From NCBI GenBank assembly GCA_000733355.1, contig JNVV01000072.1, forward strand, positions 62,001 to 126,000: 64,000 bases of DNA, read 5' to 3'. Positions 9,240 to 61,606 of this stretch are shown piece by piece; position 1 is the stretch's first letter; every line of letters starts with the position of its first letter. The notes beneath the pieces are model-generated. The model was not told the DNA's origin and ran no database searches. It was given only the letters and a program-made list of their open reading frames with translations. The position numbers were made by a program, and so were the translations under genes. This stretch comes from Falciphora oryzae (lineage: Eukaryota; Ascomycota; Sordariomycetes; Magnaporthales; Magnaporthaceae).

Positions 9240-12200
9240 GGGTAATCTTCCTATCGGACAAGGTAACGAACCTTCCCGCCTGTATCCATGGAATCCATAA
9301 CCTTTTTTATAACGAAATCTCCTATAACCGAGGGGGCCTCCCGCAGTACCTGGTCAGGGTTAGGTCGTGCCTGAATGCCAGAGCGGTAGGGTTCGATAAG
9401 GGACACGTGGAAAGCGTTATGGATTTTCCAGGTTTTAGGCAGGGCCAGTCGTACCGCCGTGGGAGAAATAACCTTAAGGATCCGGAAGGGCCCGAGCATT
9501 TTGGCATCGAGTTTTTTGGCGGGGCGACGGGTCTTTATGTGCCGGGCGTTTAATATAACGAACTGTCCTTCGGTAAGGACCGGCGAGGGNNNNNNNNNNN
9601 NNNNNNNNNNNNNNNNNNNNNNNNNNNNNNNNNNNNNNNNNNNNNNNNNNNNNNNNNNNNNNNNNNNNNNNNNNNNNNNNNNNNNNNNNNNNNNNNNNNN
9701 NNNNNNNNNNNNNNNNNNNNNNNNNNNNNNNNNNNNNNNNNNNNNNNNNNNNNNGAGTAATGGAGGTATTTGCCGAGGATATATTATTATAAGCAAATTC
9801 CGCCGTAGGTAACAGCTCGACCCAGTTAGTTATTTCGTAATTTACGAAAGACCTAAGGTAGGCTTCCAGGCTTTGGTTAAGCCTTTCGGTTTGTCCATCC
9901 GTTTGGGGATGGAAGGCAGTGCTTATTTTTGGCTTAATGCCTACCAAACGGAGGAAATCTTTCCACAAGTGGCTCGTAAATCTGGAATCTCTATCAGAGA
10001 TAATATCCAGAGGCATACCGTGCAGTCGCCAGTATTTTTTGGCGAAAATGCGGATAAGGTTATCCGACTTTTTACCCTCGATTTTAAGGGGGACGAAATG
10101 CGCCATTTTGGTAAAGGGGTTTACCATTACCCAGATTGAATCGCACCTATCGCTTAAAGGGAGGTCCGTGATGAAGTCCATGGCCACCGTCTTCTAGGGC
10201 TGGTAATGCAGCTCTATGGGTTGTAGGGGTCCAAAGGGGGCATGCTTTGGGGCCTTATTGCGTTGGCACTCCAGGCATCCCCTCACGTATTCCCGGACTT
10301 TTGCCTCGATGTTGGGCCACCAAAAGTGCCGAGTAATTAATTCGAGGGTTTTATCCATACCCATATGTCCAGCGACTTTTGTGTCATGCTCGGACTCGAG
10401 GACTTCCTTTTGCAGGGCCTCCGTTGGCACCCACAATTTTTCTTTATGATAAAGGAGGCCATCCTTAACTTCTTTACCCTTTTCGGGCTTTTGGAGGCGG
10501 CCCTGGTATTTGGAATCCGATATACCAGCTTGTTTAACTTTGTTAGTAAATTCCGTAGCCCACTTTAGGATTGGAATATTGCAAAGCCGGCCTGGGGACA
10601 GGAGGAAAGAAGGTGCTCCTTGCGGCAAAGCTTCTTCCATGGGGTTATCTTTTTGTCCTTCCAGGGCCGAAATTCTTGCTGGGAAGTGTTTTTCTTGTAG
10701 GATCGTCGTGATCGGCTGATCCTCACTCCCCCCTTTCTCAGGCCTGTGCTGAGAGAGTCTCGAAAGCACGTCGGCCTTATCGTTTTGTTTTCCTGGCCGG
10801 TAGTTGATCATAAACCAATAACCAGCCAGCTGTTGTGCCCACCGGGCTTGCCTTCGATTAAGGACTTTGGCCGTTAGGAAATATTCGAGGTTCCGGTGAT
10901 CTGTATAAACCTTTATCCGGTGCTTTGCCCCTTCGAGGTAATGCTTCCACCTAGCGAAACAGTCGACGACCGCCAAAAGTTCCTTATCGTGGATTTCATA
11001 GTTGATTTCGGCGGGCGACATTTTGCGTGAATGGAAGGCAACGGGGTGCAGTTTGTTGGTTTCGGGGTCCCTTTGGGATAGCACCCCTTTAAGGGTAAAG
11101 TTCGAAGCGTTTACTTCGACTTGCGCCGGGAAAAACGGATCGAAATGCCGGAGTATCGGAGGCGAAACGAAAGCGACTTTAAGAGCTTCGAAGGCCTGGT
11201 CCATCTCGGGGGTCCATCGCTATTGGCTTTTAGGCAGGGCGTTGGCCGTCGTTATAGGCCTAACGATTTTGGAAAACCCTTTGATAAACCTCCTGTAGAA
11301 GTTGGCGAAGCCAATAAAGGATTGGGAGTCCTTAAGGCATTTGGGGGCTTCCCATTGCATAATGGCGTCCACTTTATCCTTGGATATTGCGATGCCATTG
11401 GGTCCTATTATGTGACCAAGGAACTCGACTTCGTGCACCCCCCAAACGCATTTGCGAGGGGCCACGGCCAGGTTGTACTTGGTAAGGCGGCGAAGCACCT
11501 CCTTTACCAAGCTATCGTGTTGTTCCTTGGTTTCGGCGTATATTAGGAGGTCATTAAGATATATAAGGAGTCCGGCATCGATAAGGTCCATAAAGATATG
11601 GTTCATTATGCTTTGGAAGGTGGCAGGTGCGTTGATAAGGCCCATAGGCATGACCGTGAATTCGAAGACGCCGTATTTGCAGCGGAAGGCCGTAAGCCAT
11701 TCGTGCCCTTTCTTTATCCGAATTAGGTTAAACCCGGTTTTGAGGTCGATTTTCGTTTTCCATTTGGCATTCCGAAGTCGATCCTGGAGCTCCGTAATAA
11801 GCGGAATAGGGCACCGAATCGGAATTGTTTTGGCGTTTACGTCCCTGTAGTCGACCACCACTCGCAAGGGATTAAGGGGGTCCTTTTTTTGTGCGAATAT
11901 TAGGGGCGAACTGTTGGCAGTTTTGCATGGCCTAACTTTTCCGGTTCGTATATGCTTTTCCAGCCAGGGCTTTAGCACGTCCAATTCCCTTTGGCTCATT
12001 TGGTATAGGGGGCTATGGGTTAATTGGGCTCCTTCCTTTAGGTGAATTTCGTGGTCCTAGGGCTGATGATCGGGAAAACGGGTGGCGGCCGCTTCCGTTA
12101 TGATAGGGAGGAATTCCCTAAATTCCTCTGGTACCGAAGCGAGGCCGTCGGAGTCCGCTTTGGTCACTTCCTTAGGGGAAGGAATATCGTGCCCGTATTT

Positions 12201-23963: not shown

Positions 23964-24944
23964 ATGGGCCGCATCTGCGCCGGCTGCGGGCGCGACCTGC
24001 CGCAGACGTCCTACACGCCAAACCAGTGGTCCAAGGGCTACGGCTACTCGCGCTGCGCCGGCTGCGTTCACGGCCACTACTCCGACACCTCGGCTGCCCA
24101 GCAATCCGATGCCGGCCGCTACAACCTCTCCTCGCACGCCTCGTACACCTACGATGCCCTAGAGAACCCTTTCGCCTCCGGCGCGTTTCGTTGGGTCGCC
24201 AAAGGGAGCTACACCGAGGGCCCGCGCCAGGGCCAAGCCAGCGTTCTGAAATGGTTCAAGACGGGCGCTGTCTTTGAAGACGACTACTTCGCTCTAGATA
24301 TCAAGGCGTCCAGTAAAGCCTTGGAGATTGTGAACCGCTTCAACCAGCTGGGTGTTGTGGACAAGACCGTCAAGATCAACGTGCCCAATGTCTGGGTGTT
24401 TGAGGATGATGCTGGTCCCTGGTCTCGCCAGAAAGGGCTGAGCGAGCCCTTCATCCAAAACTACCAAAAGTTCAACAGCAACACTGGCTGGAACGACGAG
24501 ACGCGGCCGTGGGCACGGGCGATGCAGGCATTGAGTCGTAAGTACACCATCTTCTTCCACAGCTCGAGAAAGGTCGTATACCCCGGAACTCACATTCCTG
24601 TGTTTCTTTTGTTGGTCTTAGACTTCAGCTACCACATCTCCGGCGGCAACTACGTCCTCTGCGACCTGCAGGGCGGCATCTACCAGCACGAGCTCGTCCT
24701 GTCCGACCCCGTCATCCTGTCCCAGACCCGCGAGTACGGCGTGACCGACCTCGGCCCGAATGGCATCAGCTCCTTCTTCAGCCAGCATTCCTGCAACAGC
24801 TACTGCCGCCCTAACTGGACCAAGCCGGCCAGTCCGCGGACCTACTTCGACCCGGTCCCGGGCACGACCATGATCCGTCGCTCGGTGCCTCCGGCCATGT
24901 CCAAACCCAACAGCACCCGCTATTACGGCGGCTATTGCTATTGA
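23964..24944 (+). CDS. Alpha-kinase (MHCK/EF2K-type) domain protein with N-terminal Zn-binding motif
   Basis: Two exons, 23964-24537 and 24622-24944, encode 298 residues. The 84-nt intron (GTAAGT..TTAG) is a multiple of three and can be read through, but removing it restores the join LSHFSYHISGGNYVLCDLQG. Residues 5-37 hold CAGC and CAGC pairs (C5, C8, C31, C34), a probable zinc ribbon seen in fungal alpha-kinases. The kinase domain follows, with an invariant-type Lys in SVLKWF (about residue 94), GGNYVLCDLQG for the metal/ATP loop, and the C-terminal zinc site SQHSCNSYC. Alpha-kinases phosphorylate Ser/Thr, often in helices. The substrate is unknown. Length suits a minimal single-domain kinase. 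Confidence 0.88.
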   Translation: MGRICAGCGRDLPQTSYTPNQWSKGYGYSRCAGCVHGHYSDTSAAQQSDAGRYNLSSHASYTYDALENPFASGAFRWVAKGSYTEGPRQGQASVLKWFKTGAVFEDDYFALDIKASSKALEIVNRFNQLGVVDKTVKINVPNVWVFEDDAGPWSRQKGLSEPFIQNYQKFNSNTGWNDETRPWARAMQALSRKYTIFFHSSRKVVYPGTHIPVFLLLVLDFSYHISGGNYVLCDLQGGIYQHELVLSDPVILSQTREYGVTDLGPNGISSFFSQHSCNSYCRPNWTKPASPRTYFDPVPGTTMIRRSVPPAMSKPNSTRYYGGYCY

Positions 24945-27905: not shown

Positions 27906-30900
27906 TCAGATGACACGAGCTCGCTCGGTTCCGCAGTCCAGTGCCAGATGAGTCTTGCGGACGGTAGCGGCGCCGAGTCTTTCATACTCGATGTGCGCGG
28001 CCCTCCCCTGCGCTGGCGAAACAACTAGGATGTAATATGCTTCGTCCCCCCCTTGGCTTTCCGACGACAACGGCAATTCCTTGCCGACCACGATACATTT
28101 TAGGTTCCAGGTATCGGCTGTGCGCCAGGTGTCCAGGATGAGGAGACTTCGGTTGAGCAATATCTCGTCCGTGAACGCCGTGACGGGTGCTGTCAGCTCG
28201 ACTGGCTCCGTGCTAGTATCCAAAGAGATGTCGCGGTTCCACTCGACCTCGTTCGGTGCCACGTCTAAATAGTCGATGGGTCCCATGTACGCCATCCACG
28301 ACCACGTCGGCACCGGTCGGCACGGATTTTTGATCCACTGGAGGAGCGAGTCGCTCGGCCGCCGCCACAGGAGGCTGCGGTGGAGGTATTCGACTTTGGC
28401 AAAGACGCCAAAGGCGACAGGCGACCGCATCTCATCGGCCAGGCGGCGCTCCACGCCGGCAACGGCGGCCGGCCGGTCGGTGGCGTGTGTGAGCTCCAGC
28501 CGCGAGTACGTCTTGAAGATGGCCTGGAAGACGCGGTGCCGTGTGTTGTCAGCGGTCGCCTGTGTCAAGGCGAGCTTGGGAAACTGCGGATCTCCAAGGA
28601 ACCTGGCTTCTTGACTGGAGAGGGAATTGTCAATGAGCAATGAGTGAAAGGGCCGGGAAGAAGGGGATATGACATACTTGTTTAACAGCGATAGGCTTTC
28701 ACAGTGGATACCGCGGCCGCACTCCCAGTACGTCTGGCCGGCGCTGAAGTGGATCGTCCGCCGCGCCAGCGCCCGCTCCTGCAGGACCCAGCCGCGACGG
28801 CTGAGGCCGGCGTCCTCGACGTCGCCTTGAAAGTCGTCGACCGTCATGCATAGATACAGCGGAGCGCCCGACGGCGCGAGCAGTGCTACAGACCGGGTCG
28901 GCGGCGGCGATTTCAGGAACCCGGTGTCTGGCCCCTCGGCGGCTGTGGCGGCGATGACGCAGTACGCCGATGAGAAGACGGTCTCCATGCGCCCGGATTC
29001 CCGTTTCCAGTCGTCGCGATCGTCCTGCAAGATGCACAGAGAGTCGATCCAGAGATAGCGCTGGCCAATCGCGCGCGTAACCTTGACGGCGTCTTGAAAC
29101 GTTTTGCCGAGCTCGGCCAAGTCGATGCGCCGGCGGCGCTCCTCTAGGTTGGCTGCAAGGGTACAGCTTCGCTTTGTTTCCTCGCTCGGCTTACCCCAGC
29201 AGTGGGAAAGGGCTACGTACCGGCCGCGGTCCGATGCCTTTGTGCAGACGAGACGCAGAAGGCCCAGATGCTCCTTTTCGTCCCCTACATCGATCAACCT
29301 GGTCGGCAAGGCAGTCTGGTACTCGGTGCGACAGCCGAATTCGACGTGACGGTCATCGCAAAGCCGCAACCAGCTACGAAGTAGCCGGTAATACGAAGGA
29401 CTAGGCCTCTCCAGGAGTTGTGGTGGCCCGATCTGAACCGTGTTATCCCCTCCCCACTTAGGCCCGACGCACATCCTTATCACGGGCCGACTCTTCCCGT
29501 CCGCCCAAAGGTTTGTCCCTTCTTTGCGCACTCTGACTGGCCGACTCGACGCTGTCCCACGCGGCCAGATCGCCCAATATAGCATTTTGCAAACGTCGCA
29601 GTTCTCGGACTTCGTGACTGGGCTAACGAAGAGCTCAAAGTCATCGTCGAGGAGCCGGAGCGCGCTACAGCCGTCACACAACCTAGGCGACGGCCATTGA
29701 CATTCCTCGGCTGCCTGGCCTTCGGCCCAGAATTTCTTGGCGAAGGTGTTATCCACGGACCGCAGCCACATGCTGTCCTTGGACTGGCCACCAAAGAGAG
29801 CGCGAGCGAGGCCTTCCGATCCCCTCTTATCAGTCCCTCCGCCCCTGGACGATGCGTTCTGGCGGCGCACAGCAGCGCCGTCTTCCCCGTTCGCCGGACT
29901 AAGAGCACAGCCCAACGGCGTGTAGTTCTTTACGTGGGCTTCGACCCAGTTCTCGACATCGACGAGCTCAAAGGAGCCGAAATCCTCCTTGCTGCTGAAC
30001 GTGTCCCTCGGCGCCTCGGCCATCTTAGTTCGATGGAAAGGATGATTGTAACTCGCGTCGTTTGGGGTCTCGGTCGGCTTTCTCTGCTCGATCCACGCCA
30101 AGTGTGACTTCAGCTCGTCGAGGCTTAACAGGGTGTCCCGGCCAAAGTCAAGCCCAGAGAGACGGTGAAGCGGTAGCGCCCGCGCGTCGAGCGACTGGAC
30201 CGCATCCCAGCGTTCGGTAAGCATAACGTCGACACGGCGCAGCACCTCACGCGGGAAGTCGTACCAGGCCGCTTTTATAGCCGCTGGTCCTAACTTCAGA
30301 ACTCGCTGGTCGATTTGGCCTTTATGAACAAGAGAAGGTCATGAGACGCGTTCTCATCCGCTGCTCTCTCCAGAACACAGCTCATGAGGAAAATTATAAG
30401 CGCCTTGTAGAGAGGCCGCTCGCGAAGATAAGGATGATTGTCGTCGTCGTCGCCGCCCTCGCGTTGCCCCGCAGAGCGGTGTAGCGTAAGTTGTAGAGCC
30501 ACCCTGATCAGAAGCCACAGCGGTGACCTGCGCCAGGAGAACTCGGTCTCGTCCTCGTGAGCCTGGGACCAGACTTCCAGGAGCGTTTCCTCTCTGCTGT
30601 GTTTGTATATGCGCGCCGGTTTATCCGTGAGACTGCGGCCGATGCCGCGTAGCACGCCCATGACCATGTCATTGACCAGCCTCGGGTTCCCCTGGTCATC
30701 ACGGGACGGTGTCAGTTTCACCAGGCCACCGGGCAATACAGTGTGGCTTACAGGAATCTGGGAGTCCCCGCCATCGTCAGACTGGCCCGCTGTATCTAGT
30801 TCCAGCTGGCTGAGGACGTTCAAAAATGGTTGCAGGAATGCAGGGTCGATTACGCGGCGCCGGGCGACGGCGACGGCGCGGGTGGGGAAGCAGCGGCGGA

Positions 30901-31455
30901 GCCGCCCCTCGCAGCCCGTGACGATGTCGTCCGGGGCGAGGAGTTCCAGTGACTCGAACCACATGTCGGCGCCCACCCGGGTGGCGAGGAGGCCAGCATT
31001 CTGGCGATAAATGTGCACTGATAGGCAATCTAAGTTTTCATGTTTCAGCTCATAACCTTGCCGTGCTCCGCCGCTCGTGCCGCTCATCAGTGTGTCTGCG
31101 TTGAAGAGAGTGCCGTACCATTTTCCCCAAGATCCACCATCTGCCGTCCGAGTACATCCGCACGAAAGCCTCTGTTTTCCTCTTCCCGACCGTCCATCAT
31201 GCACCGCAGCATCCGGATGCAGCGATCGAGCGTCGGGATCTGCGTGGCGTCGAGGCACATGCGAAATCGCGTCAGGGCATGGTAGACCGTCTCTAGTAGG
31301 TTCCATTCGTTTGACGCACAGCTGCTGTCGGGATGCGGGAGCTTCGGAGGGAGGAAAATGTGGCGGATTAGGAAGTACAAGGAATCGTCCGTCTTCGGGA
31401 TGGGTTTTCTGTTTCCTTCCTTGAGCTGCGAGAGATGGGCTTTGAGACTGGCCAT
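27906..31455 (-). CDS. DUF6606-HET chimera: N-terminal half of a giant DUF3638-family protein joined to a HET domain (one frameshift)
   Basis: Starts at ATG 31455. Exon 1 (31455-31119) gives the family start with FLIRHIFLPPKLP. A 62-nt intron (31118-31057) joins LGENG to YELKHENLDCLSVHI. DUF6606 continues (RRSPLWLLIRVALQL) to LFIKAK near 30315, where one base is missing from an A run. The next frame resumes the family pattern DQRVLKLGPAAIK, then RDTLLSLDELKSHLAWIE and ENWVEAHV (about 29940). After about 75 unassigned residues comes a Cys-rich pre-HET part (LCDGCSAL, CDVC) and a HET domain (about 29220-28780) with YVALSHCWG, RYLWIDSLCILQDD and IAATAA. A 63-nt intron (28677-28615, GTATGT..CCAG) can be read through. 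The spliced length is one base short of a whole number of codons (1142), matching a single deletion. HET domains trigger incompatibility cell death in fungi. A sequencing error at the A run cannot be excluded. Confidence 0.8.
30313..30317 (-). other. Single-base frameshift site in the DUF6606-HET gene
   Basis: On the minus strand GCCAAATCGACC would need one more A to keep the family reading IKAKIDQRVLKLG in one frame. Without it the frame stops two codons after TSEF. Confidence 0.65.
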
Positions 31456-31864
31456 AGTTCACGATTGCTAGGGCGACCGCTCGTGCTTCTCTTCTCGTCT
31501 CGTTTGCCGCGGAACACCGTACTAAGTCAAGACCCCCGTTTTCCGACCCCCCCCACTTTCCGCCACCCCGCTCCAACCACGACGCACCTTTTTATACTAG
31601 CGACAATAAATCCAAATAAAATCGCAAGAATACGTACGAAGGAGTAAACGAAAGCTAAATTTTTGGGCTTTCTAAAACTGCTATACGCGTAATTTCAAAT
31701 TTTCGGTAACGTGTATAATCCGGAATTGAAAAGAAAAGTGGAAAAAACGGACCCACCTTTTTAAATTTGTAATAATAAATTAAAATAAAATCGTAAAAAT
31801 ACATAAAATATATAAACAGAAAATTGAATTTTCGGGCTTTTATTGTATATTAAATTTGCATTTC

Positions 31865-32165
31865 TGTTGGATTGCACTGGCCTGTGCAGGCAATCGGCAG
31901 AGCCCAGAGAGAGTCGGATCCTCCGGTCCCGTGATCTCTGATCACGGGATCCGAGGACCCGCAAGCCCGCGGAGGCTGGGAGCAGGGGAAGGCCCCTTTG
32001 GTGATCTGGATCGTGTATATATAGCCTCCCTTCTGCCCCCTCTCTGGCAGATAGATTCCTTTCCTCTTCGTGCACAAGAATAGATTGATCCTTTGATATA
32101 AAGGATCGTTGTTCACCCTCTTTGGAGATCTCCGAGCCCGACAGGAGTACCAACTCCTACCAACA
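31865..32165 (+). mobile_element. Solo LTR, family B, copy 2 (301 bp)
   Basis: TGTTGGATTGCAC..CTACCAACA flanked by ATTTC on both sides (31860-31864 and 32166-32170). It interrupts the left arm of the palindromic element. Confidence 0.92.
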
Positions 32166-32404
32166 ATTTCCGTATATTTTTTATAATTAAATATTTAAGT
32201 TTGAAAATAAAAATAAAAAATACATATTAAATATAAAGGAAATAAAAACGTATATAACTTTTTTAATTTACGGTTTTTATTTTCGGGGTATTTTGTATAA
32301 AATAAATATTATAAACCCGTTTTATTTTAATTAACCGAATAGTAATTCTATTTTCCTCCATTTAAATAAAAACAATTTTACTATTTATTAATAAAATATT
32401 TATA

Positions 32405-34265
32405 ACGTAGTTCACCACCGAGCGACACAGACCACCGAGCGACATACTCAACCCCGACCTCCGGTTAATCGACGCGCATGCTAACCCAATAACGCCAGCA
32501 ATCTATTCAAACTACTCGGAACTATATACATTGGACATTTTTATTTCCTTTTAACAAATGCGCGCATTATGTCCGGTTTTGCCGCAAATGCTATATCGCC
32601 GACAAGTCGTCGTCGCCCTTTTTTTTTAACCCTTATAATCGCGCATTTTTTGCTATAGCTATTTATCCAGCTTTTGCTAGTTCAAAACATTTCGTACTTT
32701 ATCGATAGTAAGTGACCTTTTAAATTGGATACGTGTTTTTTTGGCCTTCCGGCGTTTGTTTAATATTTCGTTCGCTTTTCGTAGTTTGGAGCACTTTTTT
32801 TCCAAAAAGTTAACCCGATGCATAATTGCTTTCGCCTTTTTCGCAAATTGGTTTACAATTGCTAATATAAATATCGGAAAGCTGTTTTAGTAATTAGAAA
32901 TCCGAGTTTTAATATGTTTAGATTGCGAAGTTGCTTCCCTAGCTATTTTGGGCGTTTTGGAAGTTTAAGGTTTGGGGTCGTTTAGGGGCGTTTTCGGGGG
33001 AGTTAGAGTTTATAACCTCACATCCAGCTTTTTTAAAACCGAATTTGGATTAAAAGGAGTAAGGCCAGCCTTTCGGAAGCCTTTTTAAATATTTCCTTCG
33101 GTTATAAAGTTAAAAAATGCCGCTTTAAACGCCAAAAGGAACTCGACTTTGGTTACGTGGTTAACGTATAACTTTATTAGGTTTTCGATTTGTCGACCGT
33201 ACGCTTTTTTTAGCAGGTTAAAGCACTTAACGTTAAGCGGTTAAAAGAAATGAAACGAATGCGGAAGTATGCAAAACGTAATAATGTTATATTTTTGGCA
33301 GTAAAGCTCGAAATCCGTTAAATGGTAGCTTTCGTAGCCGTTTAGCATTAACAAACGATATATGCCTTTCGTACGCAATATAGTATGTTTATCGAAATGC
33401 TAAATCCATTCCAGGCCGAGTTCGTTCGTAGTCTACCCGTTAAAATTCGTTGCGATAATTTAATTGCGTAAAAGGTCGGTTTTCGAATATTAATTGGCTA
33501 AGTGGTATTGCTTTTTGACGATAATGAAAAAGGGGACCGCTTAACCGCAAAAATTAACCCTTTAAATAATTGTAGCCCATTTCCGGTTGCTAAACTAAAT
33601 TAGCTTTATTTTACTACGGCTTTTTAATGTTATAATAACTATAACGGCGGCGATTATGCCTATAAAAAAGCCGGTTTCGTCGAAATTATAAATATCGTTA
33701 TCTTGAATGCTATATTTGGCTATAATGTTTCGCATAAAGTCGAATTACGTAAAAACGAGCTTGGGATTTTCGCATTTGGCCCTTTAGTAATCGTATTTTC
33801 GAATCCAACGCGTACCGAACTTCGGGCGGCGCTTAATAAACCTCGCGACCCAATTGGTCCCGACGGTATTCGCGTTGCGTTTGGCAAACAATCGGTTGGC
33901 CATATCTTTAATATTAAAAGGCCGGGGAGGGAATGTACGAGAATTTAGTTCGAATATGTATTTAACAAGCGCCTTTTTTTCGGATTCCGTCAATTTCCGG
34001 GAGTTAGGTTTACAATCGCGTCGAGCAGGTCGGCCGCGCTTTTAATACGCGAGATTGGCAAACGCGACGTCGTAGAGTTTCGCAATAGTCCGGATGGTTA
34101 GATTTGCATTTTATTGCAAAGCCTAAAGGGCAAAAATTATCCGACTTTCTTTATTTTGTTCTGCTATATTTGTAAGTAAAGGAATTGATTGCGAAAGATT
34201 GTGTGTCGCGTTAACGCGTTTGGTATGTCGCTCGGTGGTTTATGTCGCTCGGTGGTGAACCACGT
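32405..34265 (-). mobile_element. Pogo-like (Tc1/mariner superfamily) DNA transposon
   Basis: Inverted ends ACGTRGTTCACCACCGAGCG with a second internal CACCGAGCGACA copy, flanked by TA on both sides (32403-32404 and 34266-34267). Length is 1861 bp. The interior holds a minus-strand transposase relic. It sits at the centre of the palindromic element. Confidence 0.87.
32650..34060 (-). pseudogene. Pogo-like transposase relic (CENP-B HTH + DDE)
   Basis: From the right: a helix-turn-helix region (KRGRPARRD), then LTESEKKALVKYIFELNSR and FPPRPFNIKDMANRLF leading to VGTNWVARFIKRRP, which is the CENP-B-type DNA-binding domain (33993-33784). Next comes DNDIYNFDETGFFIGI near 33690, carrying the first catalytic Asp of the DDE nuclease. 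Beyond this the frame is riddled with stops to about 32650. It would cut and paste the element at TA sites; it is dead. Confidence 0.82.
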
Positions 34266-34385
34266 TATGTAAAAATATAATATTATTTATATTTAAATAA
34301 GGAAAAATATTATTACTATTTAGTTCATTAGAATAAAATAGGCTTTTTAACGTTTATTTTATACAAAATACCCGAAAATGAAAAC

Positions 34386-34685
34386 TGTTAGATTGCACTA
34401 GCCTGTGCAGGCAATCGGCAGAGCCCAAAGAGAGTCGGATCCTCCGGTCCCGTAATCTCTAATCACGGGATCCGAGGACCCGCAAGCCCGCGGAGGCTGG
34501 GAGCAGGGGAAGGGCCCTTTAGTGATCTGGATCATGTATATATAGCCTCCCTTCTGCTCCTTCTCTGGCAGATAGATCCCTTTCCTCTTCGTGCACAATA
34601 CTAGATCGATCTTCTGATATAAAGGATCGTTGTTCACCTTATTTGGAGATCTCCGAGCCTACAGGAGTACATACTCCTACTAACA
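34386..34685 (+). mobile_element. Solo LTR, family B, copy 3 (300 bp)
   Basis: TGTTAGATTGCAC..CTACTAACA flanked by AAAAC on both sides (34381-34385 and 34686-34690). It interrupts the right arm of the palindromic element, same orientation as the other two copies. Confidence 0.92.
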
Positions 34686-34738
34686 AAAACTGTAAATTAA
34701 AAAAGTTATATACGTTTTTATTTCCTTTATATTTAATA

Positions 34739-35161
34739 ACGTGGTTTATCAGTGAGTGGACCATATCAGCGAGTGGGCCACCCAGAAATACATACAAAAA
34801 ATGCCGGTGCACTTTAATCAATTTGCAGTGGAATTTTATAAAAATTTAACTAGTAATTATTAAAAATAATCTTTACGTAAAAATATTTTTCCCGGATTTT
34901 TATTATTACCCCTTTAAGGTAATTTACATATTGTACACAGTGTAATACACAGTGCTGCAAACTAACCTAAAAGGGGTAATACTAAAATTCCGGAAAAATT
35001 AATTTTATAATTGTTATAAAGTTACATGTAGTTAACTATTTAAATTTTAGTAAAATTTAACCACAAATTAAGCGAGTTATTTAGTTGAAAAAAACGGCGT
35101 TTAATATGGAATTTCGAACTGGCCCACTCGCTGATATGGTCCACTCACTAATGAACCACGT
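34739..35161. mobile_element. Non-autonomous TA-flanked MITE (423 bp)
   Basis: Ends ACGTGGTTTATCAGTGAGTGG and its near-perfect reverse complement, with about 40-bp inverted repeats and TA on both sides. The first eight bases equal those of the pogo element at 32405, and the ends have the same internal-duplication style, so a pogo-type enzyme may have moved it. No coding. Confidence 0.82.
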
Positions 35162-35516
35162 TATGTATTTTTTGTTTTTATTTTCAAACTTAAATATTTA
35201 ATTGTAGGAAATATACGGAAATGCAAATCTAATATACAATAAAAGCCCGAAAATTCAATTTTCTGTTTATATATTTTATGTATTTTTACGATTTTATTTT
35301 AATTTATTATTACAAATTTAAAAAGGTGGGTCCGTTTTTTCCACTTTTCTTTTCAATTCCGGATTATACACGTTACCGAAAATTTGAAATTACGCGTATA
35401 GCAGTTTTAGAAAGCCCAAAAATTTAGCTTTCGTTTACTCCTTCGTACGTATTTTTGCGATTTTATTTGGATTTATTGTCGCTAGTATAAAAAGGTGCGT
35501 TGTGGTTGGAGCGGGG

Positions 35517-36128
35517 NNNNNNNNNNNNNNNNNNNNNNNNNNNNNNNNNNNNNNNNNNNNNNNNNNNNNNNNNNNNNNNNNNNNNNNNNNNNNNNNNNNN
35601 NNNNNNNNNNNNNNNNNNNNNNNNNNNNNNNNNNNNNNNNNNNNNNNNNNNNNNNNNNNNNNNNNNNNNNNNNNNNNNNNNNNNNNNNNNNNNNNNNNNN
35701 NNNNNNNNNNNNNNNNNNNNNNNNNNNNNNNNNNNNNNNNNNNNNNNNNNNNNNNNNNNNNNNNNNNNNNNNNNNNNNNNNNNNNNNNNNNNNNNNNNNN
35801 NNNNNNNNNNNNNNNNNNNNNNNNNNNNNNNNNNNNNNNNNNNNNNNNNNNNNNNNNNNNNNNNNNNNNNNNNNNNNNNNNNNNNNNNNNNNNNNNNNNN
35901 NNNNNNNNNNNNNNNNNNNNNNNNNNNNNNNNNNNNNNNNNNNNNNNNNNNNNNNNNNNNNNNNNNNNNNNNNNNNNNNNNNNNNNNNNNNNNNNNNNNN
36001 NNNNNNNNNNNNNNNNNNNNNNNNNNNNNNNNNNNNNNNNNNNNNNNNNNNNNNNNNNNNNNNNNNNNNNNNNNNNNNNNNNNNNNNNNNNNNNNNNNNN
36101 NNNNNNNNNNNNNNNNNNNNNNNNNNNN
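35517..36128. other. Assembly gap (612 N)
   Basis: Starts at the right end of the palindromic element and ends inside or just before the giant gene. The palindrome is a likely cause. The true length is unknown. Confidence 1.
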
Positions 36129-36152
36129 GTTTGCCATCTCAACACGGGTGCA

Positions 36153-39100
36153 ATGGAATCCCCAACAAGTCAGACGGGGCACCATTCCAAGGCCGCAGCA
36201 GCCGAGTTTATGGGATCCTACGAAAAACTTGGCCGCCTCGTCGAGCGTTACCGAGAAGCCGCGGTCGGCCTGTACCGGGACAACCCCGAGGCCTTGTCTG
36301 CGATGCACCTAACTATCATGGAGTTATGGACTGCCTTAGACGTTTCGGTAGCGAACCTGGTCCCGTTGCTGCAGGAATATGCTCCTGGGTTCCCGCTCAA
36401 CCTTTTTAATGGGCTCGTGCTGCCCAAACGAGAGCAGCTGGAGCGGCTGGTTAGGGTCGAAGATTACCTCGCGCGACGGAGGGCTGCTGCAGGCTCCAAC
36501 GGACCTCCTTGGCAGCTCCGATCGGATGATGGTTCCTGGTCCGAAACGTGCTTCGCCGTCCGCTATTACGACTCGTCGCCTCAACATCAACAGCTGCACC
36601 AGGACATCATCTGTAAGGCCAAAAACGCATATGCCGCAGACAAAGAGCGCGCGACGAGCGCTGCGGACGTTGCAAAGCGTGCAAGGCGGACGTGTGAGAA
36701 GATGGCTGCGGAGGCTGCGAGCGCTGCAAAAGCCCTAGAAGCTGCGGAAGATGCAGCCAACGAGAGCGCTAGAAACGCTACGAGAATTGCGAAGGCCGCG
36801 AGAGCCACAGAAGCTCAAGCTGCGGCGGCTGCGAGAGCTGCACACAAAACGGCAGTTGAGACTGCAGAATGGGCTCGCGAGGCCGCCAGGGCTGCGAGGG
36901 TCGCAGAGGATGCGGAGAAAGTGGCAGCTTCAGAGGCTGCAAGGACCGAGCGAGCTGCGGAAGCCGCTAAGGCTGCTAAAGCCGCTAAGGCTGCTAAAGC
37001 CTCGACGGCGGCGAAAGCCGCAGCTGCGGAAGAGGCTGCGGAGGCTGCAGAGGCCGAAGTAAACAGGATGTGGTCAACCTTCTTCCTCTGGCCGCTGCCC
37101 AAGAACGAGGCGGCGGCGAAGGCTGTCGTCTTCGAGGTCAGAGTCCCTGCCGTCGTTGCCGTTTGGAGAGAGACGACGCTGAGCATCCTCGCCGGATTCT
37201 GCGACACCGACCCCGAGCAGGGGGCTCTGTGCCACCCCGGCGACCACCCCGTCGTCCGCGACCCGACGTGGCGGGACAGAGGTAGGCCGGGGCGCTTCCA
37301 GCTCGCGCTTAAGGTCAATAGGTCGCACGATGAGGGGGGAAGGGAACTTCAGTATGAATACTCCGAAAGCAGACTCCGCGAGCCGTTCTGCATCAAGTTT
37401 GTCGTCGACGACTGCGACTTTTACGACACGCGTCCGGGAGGGGCGCGCGACGGCTTCAGTTTTAGCCGGCTATTGCAGTCATTCAGGACGCTAGGGAGCC
37501 GGCAGCCGCGCTACCCACCCGACACCATTTCGCCGATACTGCGGAAGTGGATCCTCAGCACTGCGCACACGTCCAACGACGTGCTCGCAGCCCAGTCGCA
37601 ATGTCCGGAGAACATGCTGCTGGACGAGTTTCGAACCTTTGGCGGCCTGAGGGCCGGCCCGCAGCTGCAGTGGCACAACATCCTGCTGCAGCTGACCATG
37701 CCCTCGTTCGACCTCAACCGCCCTGAGGCATTCTTCCTCGTCATGCAAGCCGCCAACGAAGCGGGGCCTGGGGGGGAAGGCGCACCCCGCAGCGCCCACG
37801 CCGTCCTAGTCGAACAGCGGTTTAGCGATGTACTGCTTGCGGCCCTCGAGGACGCGTTAGGCCGTGTGGCGAGGAAGTGGGAGTCTGAGGTCTCGCTGTG
37901 CATCTTTACGAGCCTCGCAGTCAAGCTGCTGTCCTTCTCCCCTTACCGATCCGTGCAGAACCGCTGCTTGGCCTACCTGCGGTGCCTCCGGCAGGAGACG
38001 GCCGACCGGGCTCGGCGCCTGGCCGCGCAGCTGCGCGACTGCGGCACGGCCGACCAGGAGCGGCGCGGCAGACTGAGCCGGCACGCCTACATGATCGCGC
38101 TAATCTGCCACGCCACTTTCGACGTCGGCGCGATGCATGCGCCATCGGTGTTTTCGGACAGCGGCGAGTCGGCCTTGCTGATCGAGGCGTCGATCCTCGC
38201 CGCCGAGCATACCCCCCGCCGGATCCCCGACCATCCCACCACTCCCATACTTGATGTGTTGCTCCACCGTTGGCGCCGGGTGTCGTACGAGGCTGAGCCG
38301 CGGCTGAAGGATCTCATCGTCGACCGGGGAAGCCCCTGCCTCGACACGGCCGTCAGGGCGGTCTGGTCCTCGTACAAACCGGGGGTGGGATGGTCGCCGG
38401 CGCCAGCGCCACACAACCACGTGCTTGTCGCCGGGCAGCCCGCCGCGGCTGGCAGAGACCCGCTCTCGTTGCGGTACAATCTCTTGACGGGCAACCTTAT
38501 GGTGGGCGGCGCGCCGTTCTCACCCCTCCCGGCGAGCTTCCGGGCGCACGCGACTTACCGCAGCATGTTTGGAAGGGCCGCATTCACCGTCGTCCCGTCT
38601 CATATGAGAAGCCAGGGGATGCAGTACCTGGCTACGTCGACGTACCACGGTCACGAGCTCCACTTTGCCATGCTTGGCAAGGGCAAAAGACCAGTCGTGC
38701 GGTCCGAGAAGAAAAGACTTGTCGTGCGGTCCGAGAAGGAAAGACTTGTCGTGCGGTCCGAGAAGGACGGTACGATTTATGAGCTGATCCCGGTGGAGAG
38801 CCTCGGCGGTGATTTCCCTAGCTGCTTGCTCGACGGCTACGCGCACTGGCTGGTGCTGGGCCGGAGAAGGATCGAGTTCCGGCCCCTCGACATGACCTGG
38901 CGGACACTCGAGGATGCTGGGCCTTTCTCGGAGAGGTACTATGTACTCGACTTCGAAGACGGCACCGCCGCCGCTCGCCTGACTAAGGCGAATTTCTCTA
39001 CCAAGGCTGTTGACCCCCACAGCCAGACGGCGCGTGTCATGCACGCCATCTTCCGGCCCCTCGAATCGCCCAGCTTCATCGGCATGGCCTTTAACCACGG

Positions 39101-42100
39101 CCGGTCTGTCCTCGACATCAGCCTAGGGAGGCTGCGTCTGTCGTTCAGCCTGGCGTCCGGAGGGGCCACCATCGCCTCAGAGCAATACCGGGGCTACGAC
39201 GTCGACGAAGACCAATCCCTCGGCACGCTTTCCGGCCTGGGGAGCAAGCTCGTGCTCCGCAGGTCCTACGGCGACAAGACTGGGCGGCTGGACGCCCGGC
39301 TGGTCCTGATCCCTGCCGGTGAGATCTCCTTTGCGACCGGCCCGGACGGCCGCGCGCGGTCGACCAGCATCAAGACGGGCATCGACGATCGTGTCCAGCA
39401 CCACGTGTTCCGCGTCGATACCATGCTCGGCTGTCTCCGCGACGGCGGCGCCGTCAGCAGTAAACTCTTCCTGTGCCACCTGCACGCCATCACCACGCAC
39501 TGCCTCCCCGACAAACTCACCGGTCGGACAGGCACCGAGGAGGCGCTCCGCATCCTGAGTTCGGCCGCCGTGCAGTCGGCCGACCAGCTGCAGAACCAAG
39601 ACGTTGACCGCTTGCACCAGATAGGCGGCATCAGCCCGTTCCGGGGCAGTACCGGGCGCATACGGGCGGCCGTCAAGTGGTCGTATACCGCACCGCGGGT
39701 GGCCCAGGACGACGGCTTCCGCCAGCTGGTGGAAGCTATTCTCGGCGAGTCTGAGCTGTCAGGGGGCTTCTTGTCCCTCAAGTGGGAGACGGACTCTGAG
39801 AGCCGGCTCTTGCGCAACGAGCTCCTCGTGCGGCGCGCCGCCGCACGGATGTCGGCATACCGCGTGCCCCTGTACGGCCCGGCGCAGCCGCAGCCGACAG
39901 CCAAGAGGCCCGAAGTCGAGTACGCGGGATATGCCCACCTTCAGGACAAGGACAGCGAGCTCGAGATTTGCCGCCTGGCCAGACACATGATCGATGGCGA
40001 GGACCAGGTGATGCTGCTACACCCCGTCCATCCGCAGCACGCCTTCTTCACCAACTGCCGCATCGACAGGACGACTTCGGGGAATCTCGCGCTCACCAAC
40101 CGCCGCATCGGCAGGACGACTTCGGGGAACCTCGCGCTGAAGGCCGAGTTCAGTGCCGGCTGGATCACAAACCCCCTGCACGTCTCGATTGAGACGTGGT
40201 GCGAGGTGTTACAGGAAATCGATTCGATGCGGCGCGGCAAACCGCCCGGAAACCACCGATACAAGCTCATCCTGTTTTTCGCGGGGCTGCTGTTTGCCCC
40301 GAACGCTGACTTGGGGCTTGTTCAGCTACTCCTTGCCGTTGCCACGGTGCCTATCGTGCGAAGAAGCAAGGTGGCCAGAAAAGAGCCCCTGGATCCGCCA
40401 GTTGAGACCGACCTGGTGCGGGCCCTCGCCAATGCCGCTAAGCATGCCAACGACGAGGTGCGCATCCGGGACATGCAGGCGTCCTTTGCGGCCCTGATCG
40501 CGCAAATCAGCAAGCTGCCCACGAGTTGCCAATCCCCAGAACCATCTCCGGTAACCCCCACGTTTTCAGAGGAGCCGGCCGGGCCGAGGGGATTCGTAAG
40601 CGTGGACGACATGTTCGGGCAGCCGGCGCCGCCGACCCGCCGCCCCCTGCCAGAGACGTTCGCGTGCGGGTATCCCGTTCCCAAGGCGCTGGACGAGCGA
40701 CTGAATCCGAAACTGCCACGTCTCCTCAGCGACCTCCGAGATATGGCCCGCTTCGAGCACGAGCAGGGGTATGTCGAAGAGCTCGGACGGGGCGTCGGCG
40801 CCCTCCAAGATATGGCCCGCTTCGAGCACGAGCAGGAATATGCCGAAGAGCCCAGACGATGCGTCGGCGCCCTCCGGGACCAGCAGCGCCGTGGTAGGAG
40901 GTGCAGGCTATTGGATACGTACCGACGCGAGGCTGCCGACATGCTTGCGAACGCCAGCGACGTGCTGGGCGCCGCCGCCACCCAGGGCGGCCCCGGAGGG
41001 GAGCCGGCTCCACCACCGCCGTTTCCATCGCCGCCGCCGCTCTCGCCGGGGCTGTCCGGTGTCTTTCCGGGGGGGTGTGCCGCGTGGCACCGATTGCTGG
41101 AGCACCTGGAGGCGTGTCGCCGCGAGGTTGCCGACACGTTCGCGGCGATATGCGATGCCCTGAGCGGTACCGCCACGGCCGGTGGCAGCGGCGGGACTCA
41201 CGGCGACGCCCAGCGGGAGAAGCCGCCTTCCCTCGCGTTGCGGCTGCCGGCGATCACCCCCATGCTGCTCCTCGAGCGCCTGTCGAGGAGACACCGGGCC
41301 AAGCTGTCGGACAAGTGGCTGCGGTGCCTCGTCGACTACGCCGTCTCGCTGACGGCGCTGCAGCGGGCCGAGCGGATGGTGCGGGCGGCCGACAACAACA
41401 AGTCGCTGGCCAGGGAGCTGCGAAATGTTGGCCACGAGAACTGGGAACCCCTCGCGTTCCCGGACTGGCTGTTGCTCGAGGTCGAGATGGACATCCTTAT
41501 CCGCCCTGTGCAGAAGCTCATTGCGTCAGCCATGATGGCGCCGCCCGGCGCGCGTAACCACGTCATGCAGCTCAACATGGGCGAGGGCAAGTCGTCGGTC
41601 GTCGTGCCCATAGTAGCGAGCGCGCTTGCCGACGGGTCCCGCCTCGTACGCGTAATCGTGGCCAAGCCGCAGTCCAAGCAGATGCTACACACGCTGACAC
41701 GAGCCTTGGGCGGCCTGCTAGACCGCCGCGTCTACCAGCTGCCGCCCTTCTCGCGGGGCTCGGAGCACACCGTATACAACGCAAGCCGCCTAGCTTCTCT
41801 GCGTGCCGACTGTGTCACTTGCCTGAGAGGCGGCGGCATCCTCCTCGCTCAGCCTGAGCACATCCTGTCGTTGAGGCTGTCGGGCTTGGAGGCTGTGCTA
41901 CCCGCCGGCGATGAGACCGACTGCATTGCGCAAGCGAGGAAGGCCGCAGATGTTGTAGGAACCAGGAGCCCGATACGATTTGTCACGAATACCACCCGCG
42001 GGATCCTCGTGGAAGTCACGAAAACCCAGGGTACCACTAAAACACAGGATGTCAAGAAAACACGGTGTGCCAAGAAAACCGCGGATGCCCTGTTGGGATT

Positions 42101-45052
42101 GCAACACTTTCTAGATAGGCACTCGAGGGACATCATTGACGAGAGCGACGAGATCCTCAGTACAAAGTCAGAGCTTATCTACACCATGGGGTTGCAGGCC
42201 GCCGTCGACCTCGGCCCGCAGCGATGGCGCATGATCCAGAGCACCCTGGGACTCGTTGCCGAGATCGCCCCGGCCATCGGAAAGGAGCACCCAGATAGCC
42301 TGGAAGTTGGCCCCGGACTAGAGGGCCACTTTCCCCGGATCAGGGTTCTGAACGAAGCCGGGGCCGCTGTTCTCACCGACCACCTCGTCCAGCGCATCCT
42401 CAACGGGGGACTGGCTGGGTTCACGCACGTTGCAGGCCGGCAGCAGCATGTCAAGGACGCGATGCTCCGGTACATCGTGCAGCTCGAGCCGGTAGCGGAC
42501 GACGTCGCCGTCGTCGAAGCCTCGTTCGCGACCGAGGAACTGCAACGGCCCCTGTTCCTGTTGCGGGGCCTGATAGCCCACGGGGTCCTCTGGTTTGCGC
42601 TGCAGAAGCGGTGGCGCGTCAACTACGGCCGTGCCGACGACCGGAACCCCCCTACGGGGCTAGCGGTTCCCTTCCGCGCTAAGGATTCACCCGTCCCGCG
42701 GGCCGAGTTCAGCCATCCCGACGTCGTCATCATCCTAACGTGCCTCAGCTACTACTATGGCGGCCTACGCGACGACGAGCTCCTCCGCCTCATCGAGCGT
42801 CTTTTTTTCTCGGTTGGCGGTGAGAGGGAGTATCTGACCTGGGTGCAGTCAGCGCCCAATGTCATCCCTCCGGCTTTAAGCCAGCTAAGCGCCATCAACA
42901 TCCAGGATCGCGAGCATTGCATCGCTAACGTTTTCCCGCATTTGCGGCAGCTCAAAATGGCCATCGACTACTACCTGTTCAGTATCCTATTCCCCCGCGA
43001 GATGCGCGAGTACCCCCAGAAGCTGTCCGAGTCGGGATGGTCCATCGCCGCGACCAGGGCCCATCCGGCAACGGGCTTCAGCGGCACTAACGATACAAAG
43101 CACCTTTTGCCCCTAAGCATCGAGTCCCTAGATCTCAAAGAGCAGAGGCACACTAACGCCCTGGTTCTCAACCACCTCCTGCGTCCCGGGAACACAGTGC
43201 GAGACGTCCCGGCGGCCGAGCTGCCAACACCGCCAGGGCACGGCCCATCGCTGGCACTGCAGCTCCTCCGCCACGTCGTCGGCTCCGCATCGCCGATACG
43301 CGTCATCATCGACGCCGGTGCGCAGATCGTCGAGCTGGACAACGCTGAGACCGCACGCCAATGGTTGGACCTGGTGCCCGCCGCCGAGGCTAGCGCCGCC
43401 GTCTTCTTCAACAGCGATGACATGTGCGTCGTCTCGCGCGACGGCACGGCCGAGCCCTTTCTGACGTCGTCGTACGCGACCAACACAGAGTCGTGCCTCG
43501 TCTACATCGACGACGCCCACACGCGTGGCACCGATCTCCGCTTGCCCGGCGACTATCGCGCGGCCGTGACACTAGGGCCAGCGCTGACAAAGGACCGGCT
43601 AGTCCAAGGTGGTCTCCCCCGGCTCTATCTTTCTATCCCCCCCCATGTTTTTAACATCTCTCAATTATGCCCAAATTTAAATTGACCCGACCAAAACTCT
43701 AACTCAATGCTCACACGGATGTAGCGTGTATGCGGATGCGGGAGCTGGGCCACGGCCAGTCGGTCGTGTTCCTCGTGCCGGTCGAGATCAGGCAGAAGAT
43801 CACGGCGCTGCGCGGCATACCCCAGGGCGGCGACATTGAGGTGGTCGATGTGCTGGCCTGGTCCATCAGCGAGACCTGGCACGAAGCCCGCCGGCTCACG
43901 CCTCTGTGGGCGGCGCAGGGGCTACGGCATCGGCGCCAGCAACTGCTCTGGGATGAGGCCGATAAGGGGGATCACTATGAACTAAGCGGCAAGACGGCGG
44001 CGAAGTTCCTTGAGAGAGAATCTCTGACGCTGCGAGAACGATATCACATCGACCATCGCAGACACCCCCAAGCGACTCCGACCCGCGCGATCGCCGCTGC
44101 CGCCCGCGTGATCGCCGCTGCCGTCCCGGATGGCTGGCACAGTGAGGTCGCCCGGATCCGGGCGCGGTGCGAGGCCCCTGGGGTCGGCAGACAGCGACAT
44201 ACACTAGCCCTTGAGAAGGAACAGGAACGCGAGCTCCTGGCCGAGGTTGACGCCGTGGGCACGAAGACGCTGCCCCCACTAGTAGAACCTCTCAAACCAT
44301 CGCTCCACAAGGACGTCGAGGCGTTCGTCGCGACAGGTATCATCCCAGAGAACTCCCCAGCCTTCCTACCCGCCTTTAGAGCCCTCACCAGGAGCAGCAT
44401 CGCCGATTTCCTCGGAGGCTTGCGTTGGCCGCCCCGCCTCAGCCTCCTCGCAACGGCTGATTTTGGCCGCACCGTCCGCCTACCCACCGACGCGGCCAGC
44501 CGCATATCGGACCTTTACCAGCGCCCGGTCCAATGGATTGCCACGGCGCCCGCGCAGGTCGAGAACGGCGGCATGGCAGCCATCGTGCTGAGCCCTTGGG
44601 AGGCCGACGCCCTGATGCCAGCTTTCCGCGGTGGCGGCACGGCCGCCACGCTGCACCTGTTTGCGCCGCGTACCTCCCTGACCACGCGCTCGGCCGAGGA
44701 CCTGTTGCTGTACACGACGCCGGCCACGCCGCCCGGATGGCGTGCGCCGCGTGCGTTGGTTCTGACGCTGCTTCTGTTCGCGGGCCAGCTCTACCTCCGC
44801 ACGTACGACGACTACGTCGAAATGTGTCGCTTTCTAGGGGCTCTATACCGCACCAGCGCCGAGGGTGAGGAGGGTCAGACCGGCGACGGGGGGACAGGTG
44901 TATTCGGTCCCAATGCCGTTCCCTTCTTCCTCGGGCTCTTTGAACAGATCCGTCACCCGTCTGCCGACCTTTCCATCACTGATATTGGACACATCCTGGC
45001 CGGCGACGTGCTGCGGCGCTTTTATTTTTCCGGGCCGATGCGGGCTCGATAG
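36153..45052 (+). CDS. Giant DUF3638/DUF3645 helicase-like protein, C-terminal portion (N-terminus missing or in gap)
   Basis: The first visible ATG is 36153. The frame is already open at the gap edge, so the true start is uncertain. Exon 1 ends at 43608; a 116-nt intron (43609-43724, GTGGTC..GTAG) restores RLVQACMRMRELG; exon 2 ends at 45052. From 36153 this gives 2927 residues. Landmarks: PEALSAMHLTIMELWTALD (near 36300), then an Ala/Glu/Lys coiled-coil stretch (36610-37060), then WPLPKNEAAAKAVVFEVRVP. DUF3638 is at about 41460-42160 with MGEGKSSVVVP (Walker A-like, 41577) and DIIDESDEIL (Walker B-like, 42132). DUF3645 is at about 42570-42770 (FSHPDVVIILTCLSYYYGG). VYIDDAHTRGTDL lies near 43500. 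The motifs recall SecA/DEAD motors. Databases often label the family ubiquitinyl hydrolase; I see no support here. The usual DUF6606 start is absent. Confidence 0.85.
36610..37060 (+). repeat. Ala-rich imperfect repeat in the giant gene
   Basis: About 150 residues of A/E/K/R with repeated AAKAAKAAK units, predicted to be long helix or coiled coil. Family members have a shorter Glu/Lys-rich helix here (from memory). Confidence 0.7.
38694..38774 (+). repeat. 27-bp in-frame tandem repeat, three copies
   Basis: Encodes VVRSEKxRL three times, the third ending in DGT. Units are nearly identical in DNA. Confidence 0.92.
40050..40139 (+). repeat. 45-bp in-frame tandem repeat, two copies
   Basis: Encodes TNCRIDRTTSGNLAL then TNRRIGRTTSGNLAL. 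Confidence 0.92.
40740..40877 (+). repeat. 69-bp in-frame tandem repeat, two copies
   Basis: Each copy encodes DMARFEHEQ followed by about 14 further residues; the copies differ at few sites. Confidence 0.9.
42018..42089 (+). repeat. 18-bp in-frame tandem repeat, four diverged copies
   Basis: Encodes TKTQGT, TKTQDV, KKTRCA and KKTADA in succession, inside the DUF3638 region. Confidence 0.8.
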
Positions 45053-60667: not shown

Positions 60668-61606
60668 GTGGGTGGGAGGGCTGAAAGGCGCGTTTACTCG
60701 TTCTTCGTCTTTGTGGACTGTTTTTTTTTTTTTTTTTTTGTAATGATGTCGGATTTATGGCTGTTGTTTTTCTTTATTTTTCTTGCATCAAAATTATGGC
60801 AATCTTCCATGTGTATATCTAGCTACCTACCTACACACTGCCACCGCAGGAGTCGGCACGGCGATAGAAACACGGGGCTTGGGCGTTAGGATATGATGAC
60901 TAGTACTGCATGCTGTACCTGGAGAGGTCGGGTACTCGCAATCGTGTTGTTAATGCAAATGTATTATGAACGTTGCCAGTGCTCCCCTGCTCTCTCGCTG
61001 GCGTTGTTCGACTTCATAGGAGTTTGACAAAGCGGCTTTTCGCATGATGACGGTTGCTGACTCCTCGACCTCGTCCTGGAGTTCGTCTCGGAGTCCAGGT
61101 TATCGCTCTTCCAATTGCTACCCAAGGTACTGTTGTATCAAGGGGCTTTTTCCAGTCTGCTGTTAGGCACGCCCGCACCCGACATCAGCCAACTTGGCTT
61201 CCTAGCGTGTGCGCACACGTGGCAAATGGGCGCCAATGCCTGGTCAGGAACGAAGGCGCCGGGGGCCATGGCTAGTGGCTTAGACAGGGAGGCCCAAAAA
61301 GATTGGGCTTCGTGGCTTGGGAGTCTGCTGGCTTGGGTGGATTGGAACTAATTCGCATTGAACCTAGCAAAGCGCGTGGAGCGTTGTGGTTGGCTATTTT
61401 GACGGATCGGCCGGCAGCAACACGGTGAAATTGTATTGGGCTCAGAGGCCAAGCGAATACAAGAGGAGCGGCTGCGAAGCGGTGTCCATCTCGGTCATTT
61501 CCACTGGTCCCATCCCCATTGCTCTCACATCTCTGCATCGATCGCTGTCATCATCGTCAATCACTGGGAATTATTTGCACCAATATCCCGCCGGGGGGCA
61601 TCCGTC
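60668..61606. other. Intergenic region
   Basis: A run of about 19 T lies just after 60720 in the probable 3' untranslated region. No gene recognised. Confidence 0.5.

Follow-up and report, generated by a model that had tools for sequence, protein, structure and literature searches.

The 64,000-nucleotide stretch of Falciphora oryzae DNA analysed here (the window, part of contig C72 in a 50.2-Mb assembly) carries two genes that together hold the domains of the giant DUF6606-DUF3638 proteins, a common fungal family for which we know of no function. The minus-strand gene (31455-27906) encodes DUF6606 (135.2 bits, Pfam), then a linker and, in the next minus-strand frame, a complete HET domain (PF06985, positions 1-146 of 146, 106.6 bits against a gathering score of 22.5). 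On the plus strand, the second gene (36153-45052) encodes DUF3638 (274.4 bits) and DUF3645 (57.8 bits), with no DUF6606 found in the Pfam scan. DUF6606, DUF3638 and DUF3645 are thus all present at the locus, but in two genes on opposite strands rather than in the single polypeptide that characterizes the giant family. This content and its layout, a DUF6606 half joined to HET on the minus strand and placed head to head in the assembly with a DUF6606-less remainder on the plus strand, agree with the first-pass annotation of the window. We refer below to the DUF6606-bearing piece as the N-half and to the DUF3638-bearing piece as the C-half.

The DUF6606-HET gene starts at a Met codon at 31455. 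Its first exon (31119-31455) takes in DUF6606 profile positions 1-84 (matched at 31111-31371), with the related proteins P0001, P0104 and P0241 aligning from 31389-31407, and is followed by a GT-AG intron read by eye (~31118-31030) and by the first part of exon 2 (30314-31029), where profile positions ~80-267 are matched (135.2 bits in the Pfam scan; 30368-31036 in a separate search). Exon 2 continues (28678-30323) through the family region as far as about ENWVEAHV (near 29940), a linker with CxxC pairs and the complete HET domain (28776-29219; 111.1 bits, positions 1-146, in a profile search of the genome contigs), a part to which P0001, P0004 and P0241 align at 52-69% identity. A second GT-AG intron, in frame and likewise read by eye (~28677-28615), precedes the last exon (27906-28614), which encodes the C-terminal part with a PTWSW motif and to which P0001 and P0241 align as far as 27909. 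Within the DUF6606 half, at 30314-30332, neighbouring tblastn matches switch frame and no GT-AG solution was seen by eye; sequencing error and genuine decay are both conceivable causes of this interruption, and intact copies are present in relatives. The minus-strand gene therefore has the domain content first claimed for it but not the one clean frame, in place of which we find two introns and a frame interruption.

The C-half gene has a first exon of one open frame (36153-43607), with which P0121 and P0132 start at 36153 and to which P0131 and P0132 align up to 43607. It contains the DUF3638 region with the motor motifs GEGKS and DESDE (41433-42275) and DUF3645 (42645-42740; residues 2173-2204 of the frame counted from 36129). 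After an intron (~43608-43723), the second exon (43724-45052) runs from a CMRMR motif to the stop, and the alignments with P0124 (76% identity), P0131 and P0132 resume at its first nucleotide.

Between the two genes lie a transposon-derived stretch (31566-35516) and an assembly gap of 612 N (35517-36128). The former is bounded by inverted arms of 302 nt each (31566-31867 and 35215-35516, 99% alike), the right arm ending at the gap, and contains a nested 1.87-kb repeat (32402-34268) with ~50-nt terminal inverted repeats and at least 42 other matches of at least 1.4 kb in the genome, at 78-87% identity (40 of 752 candidate places scored). We take it to resemble a Pot2/Fot1-like element worn by repeat-induced point mutation. 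The inverted arms flank the transposon-derived stretch alone and not the two genes. A second full DUF6606 in frame with 36153, which the first-pass annotation considered as possible content of the gap, is unlikely, because P0121 and P0132 have their start Met exactly at 36153 and because none of the 27 other C-halves of the split type identified below has a PF20255 (DUF6606) call; 18 of the 27 start upstream of a conserved ELW motif, 25-515 residues ahead of it, and the remaining nine begin later or escaped the ELW pattern.

Profile-profile alignment upholds the first-pass proposal that the two genes represent complementary parts of a single giant gene. With profiles built from 12 N-half proteins, 18 C-half proteins and 15 undivided giants or giant N-terminal pieces, the N-half family occupies columns 8-434 and the C-half family columns 441-810 of the undivided-giant profile (810 being the last column used), leaving a gap of six columns and zero overlap, and the cut point falls between the FExWV segment and the LIxxY segment of the giant family. 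Undivided giants, which bear the UniRef name ubiquitinyl hydrolase 1, are homologous to both halves and have the same motor motifs and conserved DUF6606 residues, but they are encoded by one gene, whereas here there are two genes, one half being fused to HET. The undivided order is also found in the same genome at loci C9, C47, C40 and C77, where domain matches, read without gene models, show DUF6606 and DUF3638 on the same strand and in a constant order, ~6-7 kb apart; the C77 DUF3638 match has in-frame stops, from introns or decay.

Three of these giants (C40, C47 and C77) form a deep branch apart from the other giants compared, in both the N-half and the C-half trees. On contig C9 (689723-712388), the undivided giant (DUF6606, DUF3638) has HET matches a short way downstream on the opposite strand (701044-702204 and 711774-712388), a further giant-HET neighbourhood that may be due to chance in a HET-rich genome. 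A lone DUF6606 fragment, a possible relic, lies on contig C93 (16875-17201), where the profile search gave no DUF3638 match.

The same two proteins recur in other species. DUF6606-HET proteins from Cercophora sp. LCS_1, from two Gaeumannomyces species and from metagenomes are among the matches to the HET-bearing frame (best 120 of 384 listed); a query consisting of P0001 residues 1-430 gave 16 proteins, one being MAPG_10017 of Magnaporthiopsis and another having a different HET; and at least 13 clusters carry PF20255 and PF06985 together. Among the matches listed in the C-half search (best 120 of 1321) are 31 DUF3638 proteins without DUF6606, including the 24 best. For five of the 13 DUF6606-HET clusters (three named genomes and two metagenome contigs) the source contig is identical in size to that of a DUF6606-less DUF3638 protein, and three of the five pairs have adjacent or next-but-one locus tags (GGTG_09013/GGTG_09012, RB595_005989/RB595_005988 and MAPG_10017/MAPG_10019). 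In these five clusters, and so in several species, a HET gene is linked to a conserved partner of another family, as in het-B-type pairs. The nearest rows for both genes belong to Magnaporthales: P0124 from Gaeumannomyces hyphopodioides is 86% identical to the window C-half over the DUF3638 region, and the nearest N-half is P0241 from Magnaporthiopsis poae, 67% identical over 386 columns. The first-pass annotation had set its own account, a recent inversion, against the finding of separate DUF6606-HET and DUF3638 genes in related species in this same head-to-head order; the separate genes are present there, but their order has been read in the window only.

Trees of the two halves point to one origin for each. 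The N-half tree (47 of 47 rows, 411 columns) places all 16 N-halves in one clade (support 95/92), and the C-half tree (52 rows, 759 columns, the rows drawn from the 59 of a quicker tree that used 59 of 125 extracted regions) places all 28 split C-halves, that of the window included, in one clade (support 100/99; 200 of 200 bootstrap trees). In both trees the split clade stands beside Sordariomycete-type giants (99/94 for the N-half, 98/89 for the C-half), with eight rows common to both. The C-half clade spans Sordariomycetes, Leotiomycetes and Dothideomycetes, taxonomic ranks having been checked for four of its species. Furthermore, N-half and C-half tree distances correlate over the five linked pairs and the window (r = 0.98, 3 of 720 relabellings as high), with r = 0.82 (3 of 120) when the divergent P0243/P0239 pair is left out. 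Of the 31 listed C proteins without DUF6606, 27 fall in the split clade and four (P0156, P0176, P0180 and P0229) among the giants. The P0229 model is probably truncated, since it retains FExWV-type residues just ahead of the split point; P0156, P0176 and P0180 cluster together in a small group within the Sordariomycete-type giants, and P0156 and P0176, judged by eye from their first 40 residues, seem to begin ahead of the cut. A single fission followed by joint inheritance of the halves is the simplest reading of these sequences.

The HET that follows DUF6606 seems exchangeable, because another HET subfamily occupies this place in one linked pair. P0243, paired with the C-half P0239 by a contig of identical size, carries DUF6606 and HET; the nearest relative of its DUF6606 half in this genome is the window N-half, and its HET half matches HETs on contigs C30, C74, C65, C55 and C9 at E < 1e-15 but not the window HET (49 of 107 candidates scored), giving only a weak match of 41 residues to the HET of P0001. 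The different HET of P0243 may reflect a swap or a second acquisition. As read from the sequences, the C-terminal motif is PTWSW near the end of the window protein and PTWVPDF in P0243, and these resemble the PSWSW and PSWIPRW motifs of HET lineages paired with PII-like genes in PMC10890737, which also describes HET as a death-inducing, TIR-related domain. The genome holds at least 151 HET matches (150 of 235 candidates scored). Among the places scored, no close copy of the HET half of the window gene appeared; the best of the others matches part of it at 46% identity. In the matches listed, protein kinase domains accompany many of the HETs that are closest to it outside the DUF6606 set; such fusions (PF07714 or PF00069 with PF06985) likewise carry another domain beside HET, a kinase where the window protein has DUF6606.

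Motor motifs I and II (a P-loop and a DExD-like motif II) are kept in 28 of 28 C-halves, and the giant family is predicted to be a SecA/SF2-like ATPase. Identity to SecA and SF2 DEAD motors is only ~10%, Foldseek gave no match below E 0.001, and to our knowledge no translocase or helicase activity has been reported for the family. DUF6606 columns conserved at 88% or more include no Cys or His, which leaves the ubiquitinyl hydrolase name unsupported and the His-Asp-Cys triad of an AnkH-like clan CE cysteine protease unmatched; this conservation was computed on 41 of the 47 rows, 13 of the 16 N-halves among them, with P0241, the window N-half and the giants at C47 and C9 left out by name and P0014 and the C77 giant for length. 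AnkH of Legionella (6mca), a cysteine-protease-like domain with a cap domain, was the best Foldseek match of the DUF6606-HET model, at E 0.026, with none at E ≤ 0.001. The model is of moderate confidence (mean predicted local distance difference test score 58.6 over the whole protein), and the absence of a TIR structure from the 50 Foldseek rows examined says little at such quality. The giant profile gave one chance match (E 0.18) to the sequences of solved structures, PADLOC and NCBIfam gave nothing at E 0.1 for the pieces searched, and Rfam had no match in the window at gathering scores.

Taken together, the complementary halves, the single origin of each, their shared sister group, the linkage elsewhere and the retained key residues make the locus look like an old, conserved, immune-like gene pair and not a fresh accident in one genome. 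It almost certainly descends, to judge from these comparisons, from one ancient split just after DUF6606, in which the N-terminal part became joined to HET and after which the halves were inherited together. As the best explanation of the whole, which we hold with a probability of about 0.6, we propose that an ancient fission gave rise to a two-gene HET system in which DUF6606 docks on the motor and HET-mediated death is tied to it. A giant gene with DUF6606, DUF3638 and DUF3645 would have been split once, long ago, the DUF6606 part joining a HET protein and the rest staying as a neighbouring, separate motor gene. The severed DUF6606 would still bind its motor of origin, placing HET under the control of the motor, whose state would decide whether HET is restrained or armed; contact of the motor with foreign material, or with a mismatched partner once hyphae have fused, would release or cluster HET and kill the compartment. 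The docking and control steps, suggested because HET is fused to the very domain cut from its neighbour, the conserved residues are kept and the genes are linked, fall somewhat short of an even chance. More tentative still is a complete two-gene immune system, in which the motor would sense and the severed DUF6606, with its swappable HET, would dock back and fire on disturbance or mismatch.

Several points weigh against this proposal. Contact between the DUF6606-HET protein and the C-half is a prediction from sequence comparison. Among the matches listed, a linked C-half was not seen for eight of the 13 clusters, and the named genomes of Leotiomycetes and Dothideomycetes with C-halves yielded no N-half; linkage in other species rests on contig size and locus tags, relative orientation having been read in the window only. 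The trees are midpoint-rooted, the quicker C-half tree did not decide which group is sister to the split clade, and the order in which the P0009 and P0006 lineages branch lacks firm resolution. In the window itself, one interruption breaks the DUF6606 frame, and the 612-N gap and the 99% inverted arms make order and orientation less securely proven.

An ancestral inversion, with one breakpoint after DUF6606 and the other towards the 5' end of an adjacent HET gene, could have caused the fission, and would account in a single step for the complementary halves, the opposite strands and the N-terminal attachment to a HET protein that is almost complete. We regard it as a serious candidate that is nonetheless more doubtful than not: the orientation comes from the window only, the same proteins would result from a translocation, or from a duplication whose copies lost complementary parts, and at least one further exchange or second acquisition is needed because P0243/P0239 has the other HET family. 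Less likely, the halves no longer cooperate, DUF6606 acting for HET as a sensor in its own right, or as a decoy, while the C-half alone continues the giant's old job. HET proteins with different N-terminal domains are known, protein kinase domains are present in many close relatives of this HET that lack DUF6606, and the eight clusters for which no linked C-half was listed would fit such independence; the linkage in five of 13 clusters, the correlated tree distances and the gathering of 27 of the 31 listed DUF6606-less C proteins into one split clade, with four among the giants, argue against it. It is improbable that the genes form a selfish killer or toxin-antitoxin pair, in which HET kills unless the C-half is present and so favours its own inheritance: linked genes with a death domain, and the multiple C-halves of G. 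hyphopodioides (P0124, P0125, P0126 and P0129), would suit it, but the pair is old and widely kept, and ATPase motifs in 28 of 28 C-halves are more than an antitoxin would need. There is very little chance that the genes were wrongly joined across the 612-N gap, since the gap at the end of an inverted repeat and the interrupted DUF6606 frame, which might suggest an artefact, stand against linkage seen independently in three named genomes and two metagenome contigs and against a DUF6606-HET join that itself lies in continuous sequence and recurs elsewhere. Least probable of all is the inversion of about 6 kb favoured by the first-pass annotation, recent, private to this genome and making a new chimera from an intact gene, which fits the head-to-head order, the complementary halves and the inverted arms between the genes but which we rejected on the conservation of DUF6606-HET in Cercophora, Gaeumannomyces, Magnaporthiopsis and metagenomes, the linkage of the same two proteins in several genera, the one deep clade per half that places the split in a common ancestor, and the confinement of the arms to the flanks of the transposon-derived stretch.

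The proposed ancient two-gene system has a counterpart in het-B (Bh/Bp) of Podospora anserina, where, as here, a HET gene stands beside a partner gene of another family; according to PMC10890737, the het-B pair is kept across many species, its relative orientation varies, and more than one HET lineage occurs with the same partner family. Here, unlike in het-B, the partner is a predicted giant SecA/SF2-like ATPase and the HET protein carries that partner's severed N-terminal domain; allorecognition has been shown for het-B, whereas the DUF6606-HET pair is known from sequence alone. A literature search that reached few subscription papers or preprints found no paper naming DUF6606 or describing the DUF6606-HET/DUF3638 pair, and four in which DUF3638 is named, each time once or twice.

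Elsewhere in the window, a NACHT_N domain (PF17100), which stands at the N terminus of NWD-type NLRs, is encoded at 61436-62410 on the plus strand; with the HET pair in the same window, an immune-gene neighbourhood is possible. An alpha-kinase family protein (PF02816) lies at 23964-24941 (plus strand), and at 9477-11999 (minus strand) are retrotransposon remains whose domains of reverse transcriptase, RNase H and integrase type fall in different frames.

If true, the ancient fission and its two-gene outcome would be a natural case of domain fission wiring a death effector to an existing machine. The known HET partners would gain a large ATPase, and the pair suggests that death domains have been exchanged after the same DUF6606 half. 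For the giant family, a conserved split tying one half to HET offers a functional lead, towards an immune or non-self role or towards something worth guarding, and names a partner to examine.
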